64,000 nucleotides of DNA from a virus, in the IMG/VR virus record IMGVR_UViG_3300032245_001170, positions 37,588 through 101,587 of that record. One strand, 5' to 3'. How positions within the stretch are numbered: position 1 is the stretch's first letter; every line of letters begins with the position of its first letter. A program made the translations under genes and the position numbers. Below are positions 40,977-52,342 of this stretch, piece after piece. The notes under the pieces were generated by a model. It had not been told where the DNA came from. It saw nothing but the letters and a program-made list of their open reading frames with translations, and did no database searches.

Positions 40977-42902
40977 CTAACGCATTCTCGAACGCTTTTT
41001 GATGGCACTTACTACGACCTGTTTAGCGAATGGAAGCAGGTCTTTAGCATCAGAGATTCTGGCAAATACTTCTGCTTTGTGGCGCAACTGTTCTTCATTG
41101 AGTTGGTTGTGCTCCTCTACATAGTATTTCCACTCTCTATCGTCCATGATTAGAGTCATGGCTGTCAAGATACCTCTGCGATTGATGCGTTCAATTAGAT
41201 CATCGTTTTTGTTTGTGTTGAACACACCATCAGTTACGATAAACAACATCTTATTCTTCTTACGAGAAGCCATAAGTAATTGTTCAGCAGCAAGCAGGGT
41301 TGGATACGGTTCTGTACCGCCACTGCCATAGATAAACTTGTACTCAGTCTTGTGTGCAAGTTCGTTACGGGTATACGCAATCTCGGCAGCATCATCAAAT
41401 GCATAGACTGTGACGGGAGCGTTGATATGTTCTAGTGCACGTTTGATAGTCCAGCAAGCAACAGATGCTTTCTGGTCATTGCGTCCACTAGACATGGAGC
41501 CAGAACGATCGACAAGGATAACTGCTTCAATATCACAGCCATCATCACCTTCATCCCAGCGGTCAAAGGCAGCATCAATCTCGCAACCTCTAATTACACG
41601 TTGCACATTGAGTCGACCAGTTGGTGTCTCTCTTTGCCACGTAGGTTCTGAGTCATCACGAAGTCTTTGTAATTCCCTAGCGAACTTACGATAGGAGATT
41701 ATTGCTTCTTGAGGAACTGCAGTGTTATGGAACTTGCCTCGTTTAGTTATGTCCTCATGCTTGCCATCTCCACCAACAATTACTCGTTGTTTGGTTCTGA
41801 CATCTGCTTGGACATCCTTGCGAGCCAATACATCATCGATTGCATTATTGAGCATGTCATTGATGCTATCGGGTAGTCCACCAAGACTAGGAGCATGTCC
41901 TTCACCGGCTGTTGCAGGAGTTTGGGTATCTACGTTTTGTTCACGTATACCCAAAGCTTGCTCAACAGAGGTTGGTGCGCTTCGTTGTGTCGGTGTCCCA
42001 TTACTTGTATTATCTGGCTTATTACTTCCGTCAGAGGATTCGGTTTGTGTTGGAGACGAGTTAGATGGTTGCGGTTGCTGTTTAGGTTTAGGTACGTAAG
42101 TAGATTCTTTTGTACCCATTCCTTTAGCACGTTCAGCATCTTTCTCCTGAGCCTTGCCTGGTTCGGGACGACCTTTAGATGTTGGTGAGCGTTCACCACA
42201 TTTGTTAGGGCCACCGTCCATGTTAGGAAGCATTCCCATAGGGATGCATACCTCGTTGTAGAATCGTTCTACTAGTTCTTTTGCTTTCTCGTATCCTTGT
42301 GGGAACGGAAGCAAACGATACTGATCAACGATGTCAATGATTGCTGGGATTAGCTCAGGGAAGGCAAACTCATCACGGAATGCTTGTCTAATCTCAACAG
42401 GTAGATAACGACGACCACGAATGCAGACATAGTTACCACTGATATCTTCTGATGCACCCAACCAACGAGCCACTGTGGCTGTTAGATATGGTGCAATAGA
42501 TGGATACCTACCTACTAGTAATGTTTCGATACGTTGATCCTCCAAGATATTAAACGCTTGGAAGTAATTGTTATCGATAATCCACTTGACTAGTTCTGTG
42601 CCTTTGCGAGGCGTATACAGGTGGTGGGCCAACTCGTGATAGTTGAGGCCGTTTACCTGTGTCAATGTTTCCAAGTCCATATCTTGAATCTCATTGAGAT
42701 TGATATAGATTGATGCACCATCAGACCACGCAGGTGCGGGGCCATCAGGAACAACATTGACTATGACTGGGTCGCCAGTTAGAACACGGTCCGCCTGTTC
42801 GTACACGCGGCATAATGCATTCAACCGAACTGAACGCTCTTGCGTTTCCTCGGTTCTGGCTTCTCCGTAATAACTATTGTCATTGAGTTCTTCAATTAAC
42901 AT
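40977..42902 (-). CDS. VWA-domain/HExxH metallopeptidase-like protein (CobT-like)
   Basis: 641 residues. Near 85, NYHELAHHLYT gives HExxH, and NILEDQRIE downstream supplies the third ligand. The centre (about 225-360) is low-complexity Ser/Pro/Thr/Gln. The C-terminal VWA domain has the MIDAS motif VILVDRSGSMSSGR near 460 and a VTDGVF strand near 560. Such proteins pair with MoxR ATPases; CobT of cobaltochelatase has a similar outline. The partner ATPase lies directly upstream. Confidence 0.8.
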   Translation of the reverse strand: MLIEELNDNSYYGEARTEETQERSVRLNALCRVYEQADRVLTGDPVIVNVVPDGPAPAWSDGASIYINLNEIQDMDLETLTQVNGLNYHELAHHLYTPRKGTELVKWIIDNNYFQAFNILEDQRIETLLVGRYPSIAPYLTATVARWLGASEDISGNYVCIRGRRYLPVEIRQAFRDEFAFPELIPAIIDIVDQYRLLPFPQGYEKAKELVERFYNEVCIPMGMLPNMDGGPNKCGERSPTSKGRPEPGKAQEKDAERAKGMGTKESTYVPKPKQQPQPSNSSPTQTESSDGSNKPDNTSNGTPTQRSAPTSVEQALGIREQNVDTQTPATAGEGHAPSLGGLPDSINDMLNNAIDDVLARKDVQADVRTKQRVIVGGDGKHEDITKRGKFHNTAVPQEAIISYRKFARELQRLRDDSEPTWQRETPTGRLNVQRVIRGCEIDAAFDRWDEGDDGCDIEAVILVDRSGSMSSGRNDQKASVACWTIKRALEHINAPVTVYAFDDAAEIAYTRNELAHKTEYKFIYGSGGTEPYPTLLAAEQLLMASRKKNKMLFIVTDGVFNTNKNDDLIERINRRGILTAMTLIMDDREWKYYVEEHNQLNEEQLRHKAEVFARISDAKDLLPFAKQVVVSAIKKRSRMR

Positions 42903-42904
42903 AG

Positions 42905-44332
42905 TTATGCCAATTTAGATGCGTATTGACCAGCCCACGCTTTGAGTTGTTCTTCAGGAGATAGTCCTTCAGGCTCTTGCTCAACAACAATTGGGATTTC
43001 AATACCGAAATCAGTCTTGATGTTGTGTTCGTGTGTCTGGAATACCAATCTAACGCTTGCTGCTTCGTCAGGGCTGAAGTGAGCAATGAAGTTTTCCACT
43101 GCGAACTCATAGCCTAGAGCGTCAACAAAGTTAACGAACTCTTGAAGCATGTTAGTTGAGATTGGTGTTTCGTATTGACCTTTGTTAGCTTCAATACGTA
43201 GTTGTTTAGCAACGACCAACAATGCCTTAGATGAAACCAACTTAGCCTCGACCTTGTCATCATAATCCCAAGGGATTTGGATATCAAAGCGATTACGGAA
43301 GGCAAAGTTGAGCGGTGTTGTACCAATGTAATCTGGATTCATAGTAGCGAAGATAGTGAGGTCTTTGTGAGCCTCAATAGTTTCACCATGATGATCCAGC
43401 AATGTAATGGCACGACGACCGTCTAATAGTCCGTAAAGAACTGTGTAGATCTTAGGGCTGATGAAGTTAACCTCGTCGAGCAATAAGACACCACCATTAC
43501 GAACTACATCAGTGACAGGGCCATCAATCCAAGCAAATGAACCATTACCATCTGATACGAACTTACCAGTCATTTGACTAGGCTCCATAGAAGCATTGCC
43601 TGAGACTGTAGCCATACGTAAACCGCGTTCAGCAGCCCACGCTTCTACAGATGTGGTTTTACCTGGACCTGTTGGGCCATAGATTAGAACGTTGATGTTT
43701 TTGCTACGAGCATGATCAAAGATTTCAAAGTCCTCACGGGACCAGATATCTCTATGCACATAGCGTTTTGCTAGTTCAATCCGTGGCACTGATGCCAATG
43801 ATGCTTTAATCATTGGACCGCTAGATTCTGCAACTCTAATTGGAGTTGGTTCAATCGTTGCGGGTGCGGGCATTGTTTGTGTTGGCGCTGACACTAACGG
43901 AACAGGAGTTCCCGGCATACGGCGGTTGTCAATTACATGAGACTCAAGAGAATCATCACCAATACTTACCGCTTCGTAGATTTCGCATAAGCGTTCTACA
44001 AAGGACATAGTATCTGTGCTGATTGCTGCTTTAGTATGCGCTTGACATGCCTTGGTGCCGAGGACTGGGGAATAACCTTTGTCCGTCATAGCACGTTCAT
44101 CTGCTGATGTAACATATACAGCAACAGGTGTGCGTGTGAGCTTTTCGTCAGTACCTATCTGTCCTGTAATACTATCTAGGTCAGTTTCCTCCCACTTATT
44201 GTGAGGACCCTTTGTCCCATCAGTATCACGTGAATAGATTCGTACGTTACCATCATGTGGAGTGATAAGAACCTGGCGGCGCTTAGCCCCCATGGTTGGT
44301 TCGTACGACTCAGTGAATACAGCGATATCCAT
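42905..44332 (-). CDS. MoxR/CobS-like AAA+ ATPase
   Basis: 475 residues. P-loop LIYGPTGPGKTTSVEAW near 212, MTGKFVSDGNGSFAWIDGPV near 245-270, Walker B VLLLDEVNFISP near 285, sensor FATMNPDYIGTT near 325, and RNRFD arginine finger near 345. The first 130 residues are a separate unknown domain. MoxR ATPases work with VWA proteins to insert metals or remodel complexes, so this and 40977 are one functional unit. Confidence 0.85.
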   Translation of the reverse strand: MDIAVFTESYEPTMGAKRRQVLITPHDGNVRIYSRDTDGTKGPHNKWEETDLDSITGQIGTDEKLTRTPVAVYVTSADERAMTDKGYSPVLGTKACQAHTKAAISTDTMSFVERLCEIYEAVSIGDDSLESHVIDNRRMPGTPVPLVSAPTQTMPAPATIEPTPIRVAESSGPMIKASLASVPRIELAKRYVHRDIWSREDFEIFDHARSKNINVLIYGPTGPGKTTSVEAWAAERGLRMATVSGNASMEPSQMTGKFVSDGNGSFAWIDGPVTDVVRNGGVLLLDEVNFISPKIYTVLYGLLDGRRAITLLDHHGETIEAHKDLTIFATMNPDYIGTTPLNFAFRNRFDIQIPWDYDDKVEAKLVSSKALLVVAKQLRIEANKGQYETPISTNMLQEFVNFVDALGYEFAVENFIAHFSPDEAASVRLVFQTHEHNIKTDFGIEIPIVVEQEPEGLSPEEQLKAWAGQYASKLA

Positions 44333-48356: not shown

Positions 48357-49028
48357 TTACATACCCTCCACATCTCGTAGAGCCTTCTGTAAAGCGTCTT
48401 GCTGTTCTTTGAGTGAAGCAATCTTTGCTTCTTTTATCTTCTCCTTAGCCGTTGCTAAGAATGAGGCGAGTTCAGTGCACTCAGACAGTTCTAGTCTGAT
48501 TGAACGACCAGCCTTGCTCACATCTACACTCATAGAGTGCTCGTTGACTTCGTATGACAATGGGTCGTCACACCAACCTGATGTTCTGGACATGGTTCCC
48601 TTTCTTGTTCTTGTTGTATTTAGGTAGTTGAATTTGTCAATCCAACAGGCAAAACTAGGGTCATAAGGCTCACCTGATTTAGATGTAAACCTAAAGGTGG
48701 CAAGCGTTTTGACTTTATAGTAGATGCCTGTTGCTTCGTCAAGGACATAGTCTGGCCAATACCAAGAGTGTTGTCGCCTGTCGAAGTTTTCATCGAACAA
48801 TGCTTCTTGCTTGCTGACTTCCCTGATGAAATAGAATTGATCGGGGTCGCTTCGCTTGCCACAATACATGTCGTATAGAATCCAAGAGCTATCTTTGTAA
48901 GTAACCTTGTCGGGATACTCCAAGATGTGATCACGATAGGCAATCCATTGCTTATCAGCACTCACCTTATGATTTTTATACCACCGCCTGTAAGATTGTT
49001 CAAGAGTCATAATGTCCTCAGTGGACAT
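48357..49028 (-). CDS. Unknown 223-residue protein
   Basis: AGAAGGGAG before the start. Aromatic, charged N-terminal part (SYRRWYKNHKVSADKQWIAY) and a long C-terminal coiled-coil helix (KEKIKEAKIASLKEQQDALQ). No family recognised. Confidence 0.5.
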   Translation of the reverse strand: MSTEDIMTLEQSYRRWYKNHKVSADKQWIAYRDHILEYPDKVTYKDSSWILYDMYCGKRSDPDQFYFIREVSKQEALFDENFDRRQHSWYWPDYVLDEATGIYYKVKTLATFRFTSKSGEPYDPSFACWIDKFNYLNTTRTRKGTMSRTSGWCDDPLSYEVNEHSMSVDVSKAGRSIRLELSECTELASFLATAKEKIKEAKIASLKEQQDALQKALRDVEGM

Positions 49029-49047
49029 GTCTACTCCCTTCTAAAAC

Positions 49048-49117
49048 AAGGCGGGAGAACAAGGAAGAAGTCGTCATACCCAAATTTGGCTCAGACTAAG
49101 TCTTGTTCTCCCACCTT
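49048..49117. other. 16-bp inverted repeat just before gene 49028
   Basis: AAGGCGGGAGAACAAG at 49048-49063 and CTTGTTCTCCCACCTT at 49102-49117 pair with one mismatch around a 38-base loop. It lies in the leader of the 49028 gene, right before AGAAGGGAG. Confidence 0.55.
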
Positions 49118-49140
49118 ATCCCCCTTCTCTGGGGTATCTA

Positions 49141-49442
49141 CCTCGCCTTGAGATAGATAGAGAGCACACTGAATTACTGAAGGAATTGCGTGAGACTCAC
49201 AACCACAGCCCCTCTTGCGTTGCAGAACTACATACACAGCCTCTGTCGCGTCTATGACTATGCCTCTGCTCTTACTTAGGCAGGTAACTATCTCCCTGCG
49301 GGTGCCTCGGCACCTAAGTCCGTACTGTTTCGCTTCTTCACGCCCCCTCTATGATAATAGTTACACTCACATAGAATCCTCGTTCTCGGTGCAATCAACA
49401 GCCTATTCAGTGTGCCCTCTGTCCATCTCAAACTTCGCGGGG
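49141..49442. ncRNA. Candidate large structured noncoding RNA (~300 nt)
   Basis: A 27-bp near-perfect terminal helix pairs 49148-49174 with 49405-49431 (three non-Watson-Crick positions; two become G-U on the minus strand). After an internal loop the helix continues for 6 bp (49141-49146/49437-49442). Within the loop a compact three-way junction sits at 49274-49319: ACTTA/TAAGT closing GCAGG/CCTGC and GGTGC-CTCG-GCACC. A CTATG/CATAG hairpin lies at 49349-49374. No gene fits. It resembles ornate phage RNAs in style only. Confidence 0.55.
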
Positions 49443-49455
49443 AAGGATTGGTGTA

Positions 49456-49596
49456 TTACTTACAATTAGTGCAATAGTTAGTTGCCCTAATGTTCTTAAT
49501 GTGGACGCGGTAAGGCTGTCCACAGTGATGACATACAACATCAGTCATCTCTTTCTTTTTGCGGGTAATGCCTATCTTGATAGATAGTGTGAACAT
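49456..49596 (-). CDS. 46-residue zinc-ribbon protein
   Basis: VCHHCGQPYRVHIKN followed by YCTNCK: C-x2-C ... C-x2-C, a compact ribbon. AAAGGATC site upstream. Function unknown. Confidence 0.55.
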   Translation of the reverse strand: MFTLSIKIGITRKKKEMTDVVCHHCGQPYRVHIKNIRATNYCTNCK

Positions 49597-49932: not shown

Positions 49933-50130
49933 TGCAACCCGTGTCTATCCTTGTGTAAATACTCTCAGATAGAGAGTGAGAGATACATAGGCTCAGGACT
50001 GTAATAGTCTCTGCGTTTAAGTCGTAAACACCTATGTATCTTCCACAACCTACCTGATAACAGCCATACACCATAGTCGTAGACCTGGTGTGTCTCCCAA
50101 TGCTCATAGTTAGATAATTAGCAGTAGCCA
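49933..50130. ncRNA. Structured leader with a three-way junction
   Basis: AGATACATAGG (49981-49991) and CCTATGTATCT (50031-50041) pair perfectly and enclose GACT/AGTC (49997-50009) and GTTTA/TAAAC (50015-50029). A hairpin ACTCTC/GAGAGT precedes (49961-49977); ACACC/GGTGT with inner GTC/GAC follows near 50068-50092. It lies upstream of the 49884 gene. An overlapping minus-strand frame (49919-50131) is not convincing. Confidence 0.5.
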
Positions 50131-50211: not shown

Positions 50212-50339
50212 GATAGACAGAAGACACGACAGCAGCAGACTAGACTCGGGGGAGAAAGCAGGTTCCCTATGGCTACGAACCAATAGGGCTTTATCCACTC
50301 CCCATCTACGCCCATAGATACTATGGACATAGAAAGGAA

Positions 50340-50365
50340 GTGGGCGGGGGTTTCCCCCCACCCAC
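50340..50365 (-). terminator. GC-rich terminator after gene 50377
   Basis: GTGGGCGGGG and CCCCCCACCCAC form a very stable stem with a short T-rich loop, 12 bases past the stop; on the minus strand CTTCCTTTCT follows. Confidence 0.7.
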
Positions 50366-50376
50366 TAACTATCTAA

Positions 50377-51775: not shown

Positions 51776-52342
51776 ATGACAACGCTAGCTGCAATTCAAG
51801 GTGATGGCTGGTCCGTTATTGGTTGCGACTCTCGTGCCTCTGACGAAGATGGTCGCTATATGGAGCTTGCCACATCTAAGATAATTAATAATAACGGTGT
51901 ACTGATAGCTGTCTCCGGCGCTTCTAGAGGTGGAAACATTACTCAATTTGGATGGAAACCTCCAAAGCCAGGTGCAACTATTGATTTAGATACATTTATG
52001 ACTAAGAAGTTTATTCCGTCAATGCGTAAAGCTTTCCAGGATGCAGGCTTTGAAGGTAAAGAAGATGGCGATGCTGCATGGCACGACTCTAACTTGCTTG
52101 TATCTGTTAGAGGAATCATCTACCCGATCTTTAATGACTACTCTTGGGATAGAGAAGCCCGCCGCGTTTACTATGCTGGCAGTGGTGGAGACTTAGCACT
52201 AGGTGCTCTTGAGGCTATGAACTACGACCGTATAACTACACCCGAGGCCGCCGAAAAGGTTTTGAAGAAGGCGATTGCAATTGCTATCAAGCACGACATA
52301 TATTCCGGTGGAGAGATCCATACATACATACAAGAGGCCTAA
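51776..52342 (+). CDS. Proteasome-beta/HslV-like Ntn hydrolase
   Basis: 188 residues. After removal of Met the N-terminal Thr would be the nucleophile (TTLAAIQGDGWSVIGCDSRA); Asp is at position 17 and Lys near 34 (ATSKIINN), then GSGGDLALGALEAM with the conserved GSG. This is the active-site layout of proteasome beta and HslV peptidases. No propeptide and no unfoldase gene beside it. Substrate could be a phage or host protein. Confidence 0.72.
   Translation: MTTLAAIQGDGWSVIGCDSRASDEDGRYMELATSKIINNNGVLIAVSGASRGGNITQFGWKPPKPGATIDLDTFMTKKFIPSMRKAFQDAGFEGKEDGDAAWHDSNLLVSVRGIIYPIFNDYSWDREARRVYYAGSGGDLALGALEAMNYDRITTPEAAEKVLKKAIAIAIKHDIYSGGEIHTYIQEA

Follow-up and report, generated by a model that had tools for sequence, protein, structure and literature searches.

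A new family of pseudoknotted, modular RNA encoded in one operon of probable actinophages

Comparative analysis of the window (64,000 nucleotides, part of a 101,587-base IMG/VR virus contig) indicates that a gene-free segment encodes a structured RNA of about 290 nt, representing a new phage RNA family, class A, in which the fold has been preserved and the sequence has not across at least 17 distinct members. We consider it probable, at roughly 0.6, that this is a stand-alone RNA which would be cut from an operon transcript and act in trans; the processing, the trans action and the binding of a partner are what we infer. To our knowledge, only a few large structured RNAs have been described in phages, and function is open for the best studied of them, GOLLD and ROOL. 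Class A adds a family unrelated to either; its fold is backed by covariation and includes a pseudoknot, and its modular evolution is clear. A length of about 290 nt brings it within easy reach of probing, cryo-EM and genetics, and its structure offers a ready benchmark for RNA structure prediction. No published description of the RNA was found in the open-licence literature.

The segment lies within a 427-nt gap between two minus-strand ORFs (48357–49028 and 49456–49596), in a leftward operon of small genes running from 50901 to 38921. The RNA is about 1.5 kb from the operon start, and genes for a MoxR-type ATPase and a vWA protein lie further downstream in the same operon. The terminase of the contig shares 52% identity with its counterpart in Streptomyces phage BRock, and the nearest proteins to its AAA ATPase come from Brevibacterium and Gordonia phages, affinities that make an actinophage most likely; we only infer a freshwater host. 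The MoxR-type AAA ATPase, retained across the whole phage group, adjoins a vWA/CobT-like protein as a chaperone-like pair (40977–44332, minus strand). The window also carries a phage gene with a proteasome-subunit domain (51776–52342, plus strand; PF00227, E = 6e-7), uncommon in phages, and, between small genes upstream of the RNA, a strong G-C-rich terminator-like hairpin of 12 bp (50339–50366, minus strand). Immediately 5′ of the RNA stands TCCCCGC (49435–49445, minus strand), also seen in several relatives, some with unrelated interiors; it shows a strand bias of 44 versus 7 in 509 kb of partly redundant loci and is possibly a transcription signal.

Relatives were sought with a MoxR protein search, which yielded 45 loci, followed by blastn, an iterated profile and a covariance model. 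The RNA was present in many of the 45 MoxR loci, on the operon strand every time. In parallel, a motif scan of the whole viral collection, independent of MoxR, gave three further members (two of them on contigs too short to reach the MoxR region) and revealed no class A member in any other setting. The final alignment holds 17 distinct members, from IMG/VR contigs of one actinophage group, and the relatives show 45–91% identity with the window across aligned positions; a more distant member, L020, matched with an E-value of about 3e-4 to 9e-4. No homologue was detected in cultured phages (BRock group, Cantare, Gordonia) by covariance model or blastn, plasmids gave no match, and in GTDB genomes the class A motif was unmatched and the MoxR gene without a relative. 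A scan with the 3′-end motif returned unrelated loci only. Several relatives, L034 and L035 among them, have the same operon and lack the RNA. Furthermore, a tRNA-Arg (CCT) gene stands roughly at the position that corresponds to the RNA in L022 (6379–6452), L023 (1828–1901), L031 (6708–6781) and L034 (6793–6866), and because tRNA genes occupy this place in some relatives without the RNA, the comparison suggests that it is a slot for RNA genes.

The features of the RNA and of its 3′ flank are as follows.

49145–49435, minus strand: structured RNA unit of about 290 nt, new family class A (covariance model match 49139–49435, minus strand; 17 distinct members aligned)
49405–49431, minus strand: terminal helix P1, 5′ strand (TTGAGATGGACAGAGGGCACACTGAAT; 26 pairs modelled, 93% of cells paired)
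49148–49174, minus strand: P1, 3′ strand (covariation counts as for the 5′ strand)
49402–49404, minus strand: internal loop AGG, facing AGTA at 49175–49178 (near-invariant in the class A alignment)
49392–49401, minus strand: P2, 5′ strand, pairing with 49177–49188 (98% of cells paired, double change in 5 of 8 pairs)
49177–49188, minus strand: P2, 3′ strand, with a 2-nt bulge (alignment count as for the 5′ strand)
49384–49387, minus strand: P2c, 5′ strand GAGA, pairing with TCTC at 49192–49195 (96% paired, double change in 3 of 4)
49348–49375, minus strand: P3 hairpin TCTATG/CATAGA (100% paired, double change in 5 of 6 pairs)
49357–49364, minus strand: pseudoknot strand 1 (GTAACTAT), in the P3 loop, pairing with 49284–49291
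49332–49341, minus strand: conserved unpaired motif GTGAAGAAGC (alignments; diverged in the four most distant members)
49325–49328, minus strand: P4, 5′ strand ACAG, pairing with CTGT at 49205–49208 (85% paired, double change in 4 of 4)
49274–49319, minus strand: P5 domain, ACTTAGG/CCTAAGT (98% paired)
49294–49302, minus strand: P6, CCC-GCA-GGG, inside the P5 domain (98% paired)
49284–49291, minus strand: pseudoknot strand 2 (ATAGTTAC; covariation and all-against-all scan)
49222–49269, minus strand: P8–P9 arm, an exchanged cassette (arm versus core identities among members)
49245–49253, minus strand: P8–P9 apical loop AGACGCGAC (conserved in the commonest arm type)
49135–49159, minus strand: alternative hairpin TATCTATCTC-AAGGC-GAGGTAGATA (most members, with compensating changes)
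49046–49121, minus strand: strong 3′ hairpin with a T-rich tail (TTGTTTT), intrinsic-terminator-like (folding, 19-bp stem)

P1 joins 49405–49431 to 49148–49174, exactly where a sequence-only reading of the window had placed a helix of 27 positions. That reading had also held that two of its three mismatches become G-U on the minus strand, and the helix there indeed comprises 24 Watson–Crick pairs, 2 G-U and 1 C-A; the stem is prolonged past the internal loop as P2, likewise as described. Double-sided compensatory change occurs in 22 of the 26 modelled P1 pairs in the 17-member alignment.

The structure was drawn by comparison first and the pairs were counted afterwards. In the first 14 sequences 89.6% of cells were paired, with double-sided change in 64 of 78 pairs, as against only 19–37 pairs when the partners were slid. 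In the 17 model-aligned sequences the figures were 92.3% and 57 of 70 nested pairs, falling on sliding the partners by 1–3 columns to 35–46% pairing and 15–27 double changes; a hand-drawn structure and a model-fitted alignment both lean towards themselves, and therefore every column pair was also scanned free of any structure. This all-against-all scan returned the drawn helices and the pseudoknot, plus one spurious helix. Covariation among homologous phage contigs, a check proposed along with the first reading, is thus strong. Moreover, folding energies lie well below those of dinucleotide shuffles on both strands, in keeping with the claim that random sequence would not give such a structure: z-scores were −4.8 (minus) and −4.3 (plus) for 49145–49434, and −6.4 (minus) and −4.3 (plus) for 49029–49455, a segment that includes the 49046–49121 hairpin. 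No reading frame is open across the members of the class A alignment, which rules out a coding segment and agrees with the description of the region as gene-free. With strong covariation, low folding energy and no coding gene, the earlier suggestion of a large structured phage RNA has stood.

Wobble cells in the alignment comprise 80 G-U against 23 A-C, and by this comparison the RNA is encoded on the minus strand, a point absent from the earlier drawing, as was the pseudoknot. A plus-strand RNA is rejected both on these cells and on its weaker fold (−4.3 against −4.8 or −6.4). The same excess of G-U over A-C, together with covariation of the internal helices and the pseudoknot and with the single copy found in each record searched, renders very improbable a DNA element, whether a miniature element with terminal inverted repeats or a replication origin with cruciform arms; such an element would otherwise fit a 27-bp inverted repeat surrounding gene-free DNA and the repeats kept around a swapped interior in L015 and L024.

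The pseudoknot between the P3 loop and a strand of the P5 domain is paired in 92.6% of cells, with changes on both sides in 7 of 8 pairs among the 17 members. It is absent from the covariance model and was recovered independently by the all-against-all scan; in L020 it is kept as 9 bp (TGAACATTG/CAATGTTCA; judged by eye). The compact three-way junction formerly proposed at 49274–49319 survives in part: P5 and P6 are kept and the hairpin GGTGCC/GGCACC is retained in 84% of cells, whereas the third arm, GCAGG/CCTGC, is found in 55% and was rejected, the strand inside it being a pseudoknot strand.

Descent from a known RNA family (GOLLD, ROOL, Y RNA, phi29 pRNA, 6S, RNase P, introns) was already disfavoured and appears exceedingly improbable, the likeness being general only (phage-encoded, ornate, with a terminal helix and a pseudoknot). 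Rfam 15 had no match within the window, a relaxed scan of the element (cmscan, E up to 10) gave chance-level matches only, and the divergent relatives tested gave no meaningful match (cmscan). The GOLLD and ROOL models were matched neither by the window region nor by divergent members (cmscan, gathering and E up to 10), so that these RNAs are, as had been surmised, relatives in concept only. ROOL is a phage-encoded, pseudoknotted, non-coding RNA with no known protein partner, found in phages and prophages and often near tRNA genes (PMC12286853). Class A resembles it in being phage-encoded, ornate, pseudoknotted and non-coding, but ROOL measures about 660 nt against 290, its covariance model was unmatched, and class A, unlike ROOL, is tied to a single operon in one group of phages. 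A further mark of ROOL is a homo-oligomeric nanocage. GOLLD, a large phage-encoded RNA of unknown function, has a conserved and a variable region and is likewise often near tRNAs (PMC12286853). It often exceeds 800 nt, and the class A unit of about 290 nt is shorter than the roughly 800 nt or more that mark GOLLD; in class A, by comparison, it is the interior that is exchangeable while the closing helix persists. A self-splicing intron was rejected, the RNA sitting between complete ORFs and interrupting no gene. Y RNAs have a long terminal helix formed from both ends and a variable interior, as does class A, whose operon moreover contains a vWA-domain gene. The TROVE domain (PF05731) was absent from nine phage records, with the positive control detected; lacking a TROVE/Ro60 partner gene in these nine and any Rfam Y RNA match, the Y RNA/Ro60 candidate was set aside.

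The genes immediately upstream and downstream of the RNA vary between members, and L026 and L008 have the same RNA although the 690-bp gene next to it in L026 is missing from L008. The RNA is thus independent of particular neighbour genes, and a leader of a single gene is therefore unlikely; a leader of the 223-aa gene in particular was rejected, L008 having an intact RNA without that gene. A riboswitch-like leader of whichever gene lies immediately downstream would fit the P1-closed fold, the alternative helix overlapping P1 in most, not all, members, and the short distance to a ribosome-binding site and start codon in L026, L043–L046 and L050; in the window a terminator lies between the RNA and the next gene. 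This reading, already disfavoured, seems improbable given that no downstream gene family is constant and that the next gene can vanish with the RNA unchanged.

In most members the outer 3′ part of P1 has a second possible partner in the sequence just downstream, and the resulting alternative hairpin and the outer part of P1 are mutually exclusive. This hairpin is above chance (combined p = 2e-5; 14 non-redundant loci), and its pairing is kept through changes in L008 (TATTTATCTC/GAGGTAAATA), L012 (CTGTCTTATC/GATAAGACAG) and L050 (ACTATGTC/GACATAGT); L014, L021 and L010 lack a good one. Further 3′, the 49046–49121 hairpin has a long loop and so falls outside the short-loop terminator scan. Clear terminators, with shorter loops than the window's, occupy the equivalent position in L014, L013 and L029, and the remaining members have no clear terminator there.

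These features bear on the main rival, and a serious one, namely a cis-acting element of the whole operon in which P1 versus the alternative 3′ hairpin would control downstream read-through, processing or stability (put/EAR-type processive antitermination, or an RNase III site). We regard it as rather unlikely, although several observations speak for it and against a stand-alone RNA. All members share one operon and one strand, with the RNA near the operon start in the window, and a cis element would show this too, although most loci were gathered via the operon's MoxR gene. The P1-competing hairpin, with its compensating changes, resembles a switch, and genes downstream would need to overcome the strong terminators that immediately follow the RNA in the window, L014, L013 and L029. 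That clear terminators are confined to some members also tells against the stand-alone RNA. Yet, against the cis reading, most members have no terminator there, and the RNA is wholly missing from relatives with the same operon, such as L034 and L035. Class A RNA, with its 290 nt, its pseudoknot and its swappable arm, also goes far beyond what known put-type elements need, and HK022 putRNA is much smaller. HK022 putRNA is structured, is transcribed with early phage genes and acts as nascent RNA (PMC9378689). Class A, for which cis action on downstream terminators, as in processive antitermination, is only a rival reading, matches it in neither sequence nor structure.

The P8–P9 arm and the core have separate histories. 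Between L033 and L041 the arm is 90% identical and the remaining core 49%; between L026 and the window the corresponding figures are 38% and 93%. By these identities the arm is evidently exchanged as a unit between phages. Likewise, L015 (class A) and L024 have P1 and 1.5 kb of downstream sequence in common, with interiors unrelated by sequence. An independent RNA module would fit both the exchange of arms and the replacement of interiors within a retained P1.

For the stand-alone, trans-acting RNA that we favour, a mechanism can be proposed. The RNA, probably without its own promoter, would be carved out of the leftward operon transcript; its two ends would meet in the 27-bp P1, a natural site for RNase III-type processing, and the hairpins and terminators just 3′ of P1 could define the end. 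The core folds around the long-range pseudoknot (P3 loop with P5 strand) and presents the exchangeable P8–P9 arm, and the RNA would then act in trans, most likely by binding a protein, a host RNA or another copy of itself, with partner contact made by this arm together with the conserved unpaired motifs. A testable prediction from the swapping of arm and interior is that one face of the RNA sets a changing specificity. A kissing-loop dimer via palindromic P9 loops was rejected, apical-loop palindromes of 8–10 nt occurring in L021 and L010 only.

Further putative long-helix RNAs lie upstream of MoxR on the same strand in L024/L047, L043/L044/L046, L050, L030, L045, L088 and L093. They are 210–310 nt enclosed by long helices, with interiors unrelated to class A, and are located as follows.

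L024, 5573–5830, operon strand: long-helix RNA
L043, 5545–5800, operon strand: long-helix RNA
L050, 6500–6810, operon strand: long-helix RNA
L030, 6355–6630, operon strand: long-helix RNA
L045, 250–560, operon strand: long-helix RNA
L088, 7620–7965, operon strand: long-helix RNA
L093, 7110–7455, operon strand: long-helix RNA

Their folding z-scores range from −3.3 to −5.3 (L093 left out); L042 (−2.3) and L048 (−1.8) are weaker candidates. No helices matching the best of these were found in 64 kb of downstream control or 80 kb of shuffled sequence. We treat these RNAs as analogues of class A and not as homologues. It is possible, and we suggest it tentatively, that a fast-evolving phage RNA system exists in several structural classes, of which class A is one. 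All would retain, in the same operon stretch, a long helix that closes the RNA and mostly has a competing hairpin on its 3′ side, with the interior (220–260 nt) or single arms swapped like cassettes. If so, a specificity or arms-race device based on RNA (e.g. a decoy or anti-defence RNA) would fit the pattern better than a housekeeping RNA.

A second, smaller conserved RNA element lies nearby (49960–50062, minus strand), consisting of CAGGTAG, a P1 helix (GATACATAGG/CCTATGTATC) and the hairpin ACTCTC-TATCTG-GAGAGT, and usually followed by a ribosome-binding site. It had no convincing Rfam match and gave 32 motif matches across the window and related loci; individual phages have several, placed ahead of different small genes. 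Its P1 and hairpin covary, CAGGTAG is able to pair with the hairpin loop, and the element looks like a translational operator or a riboswitch-like leader.
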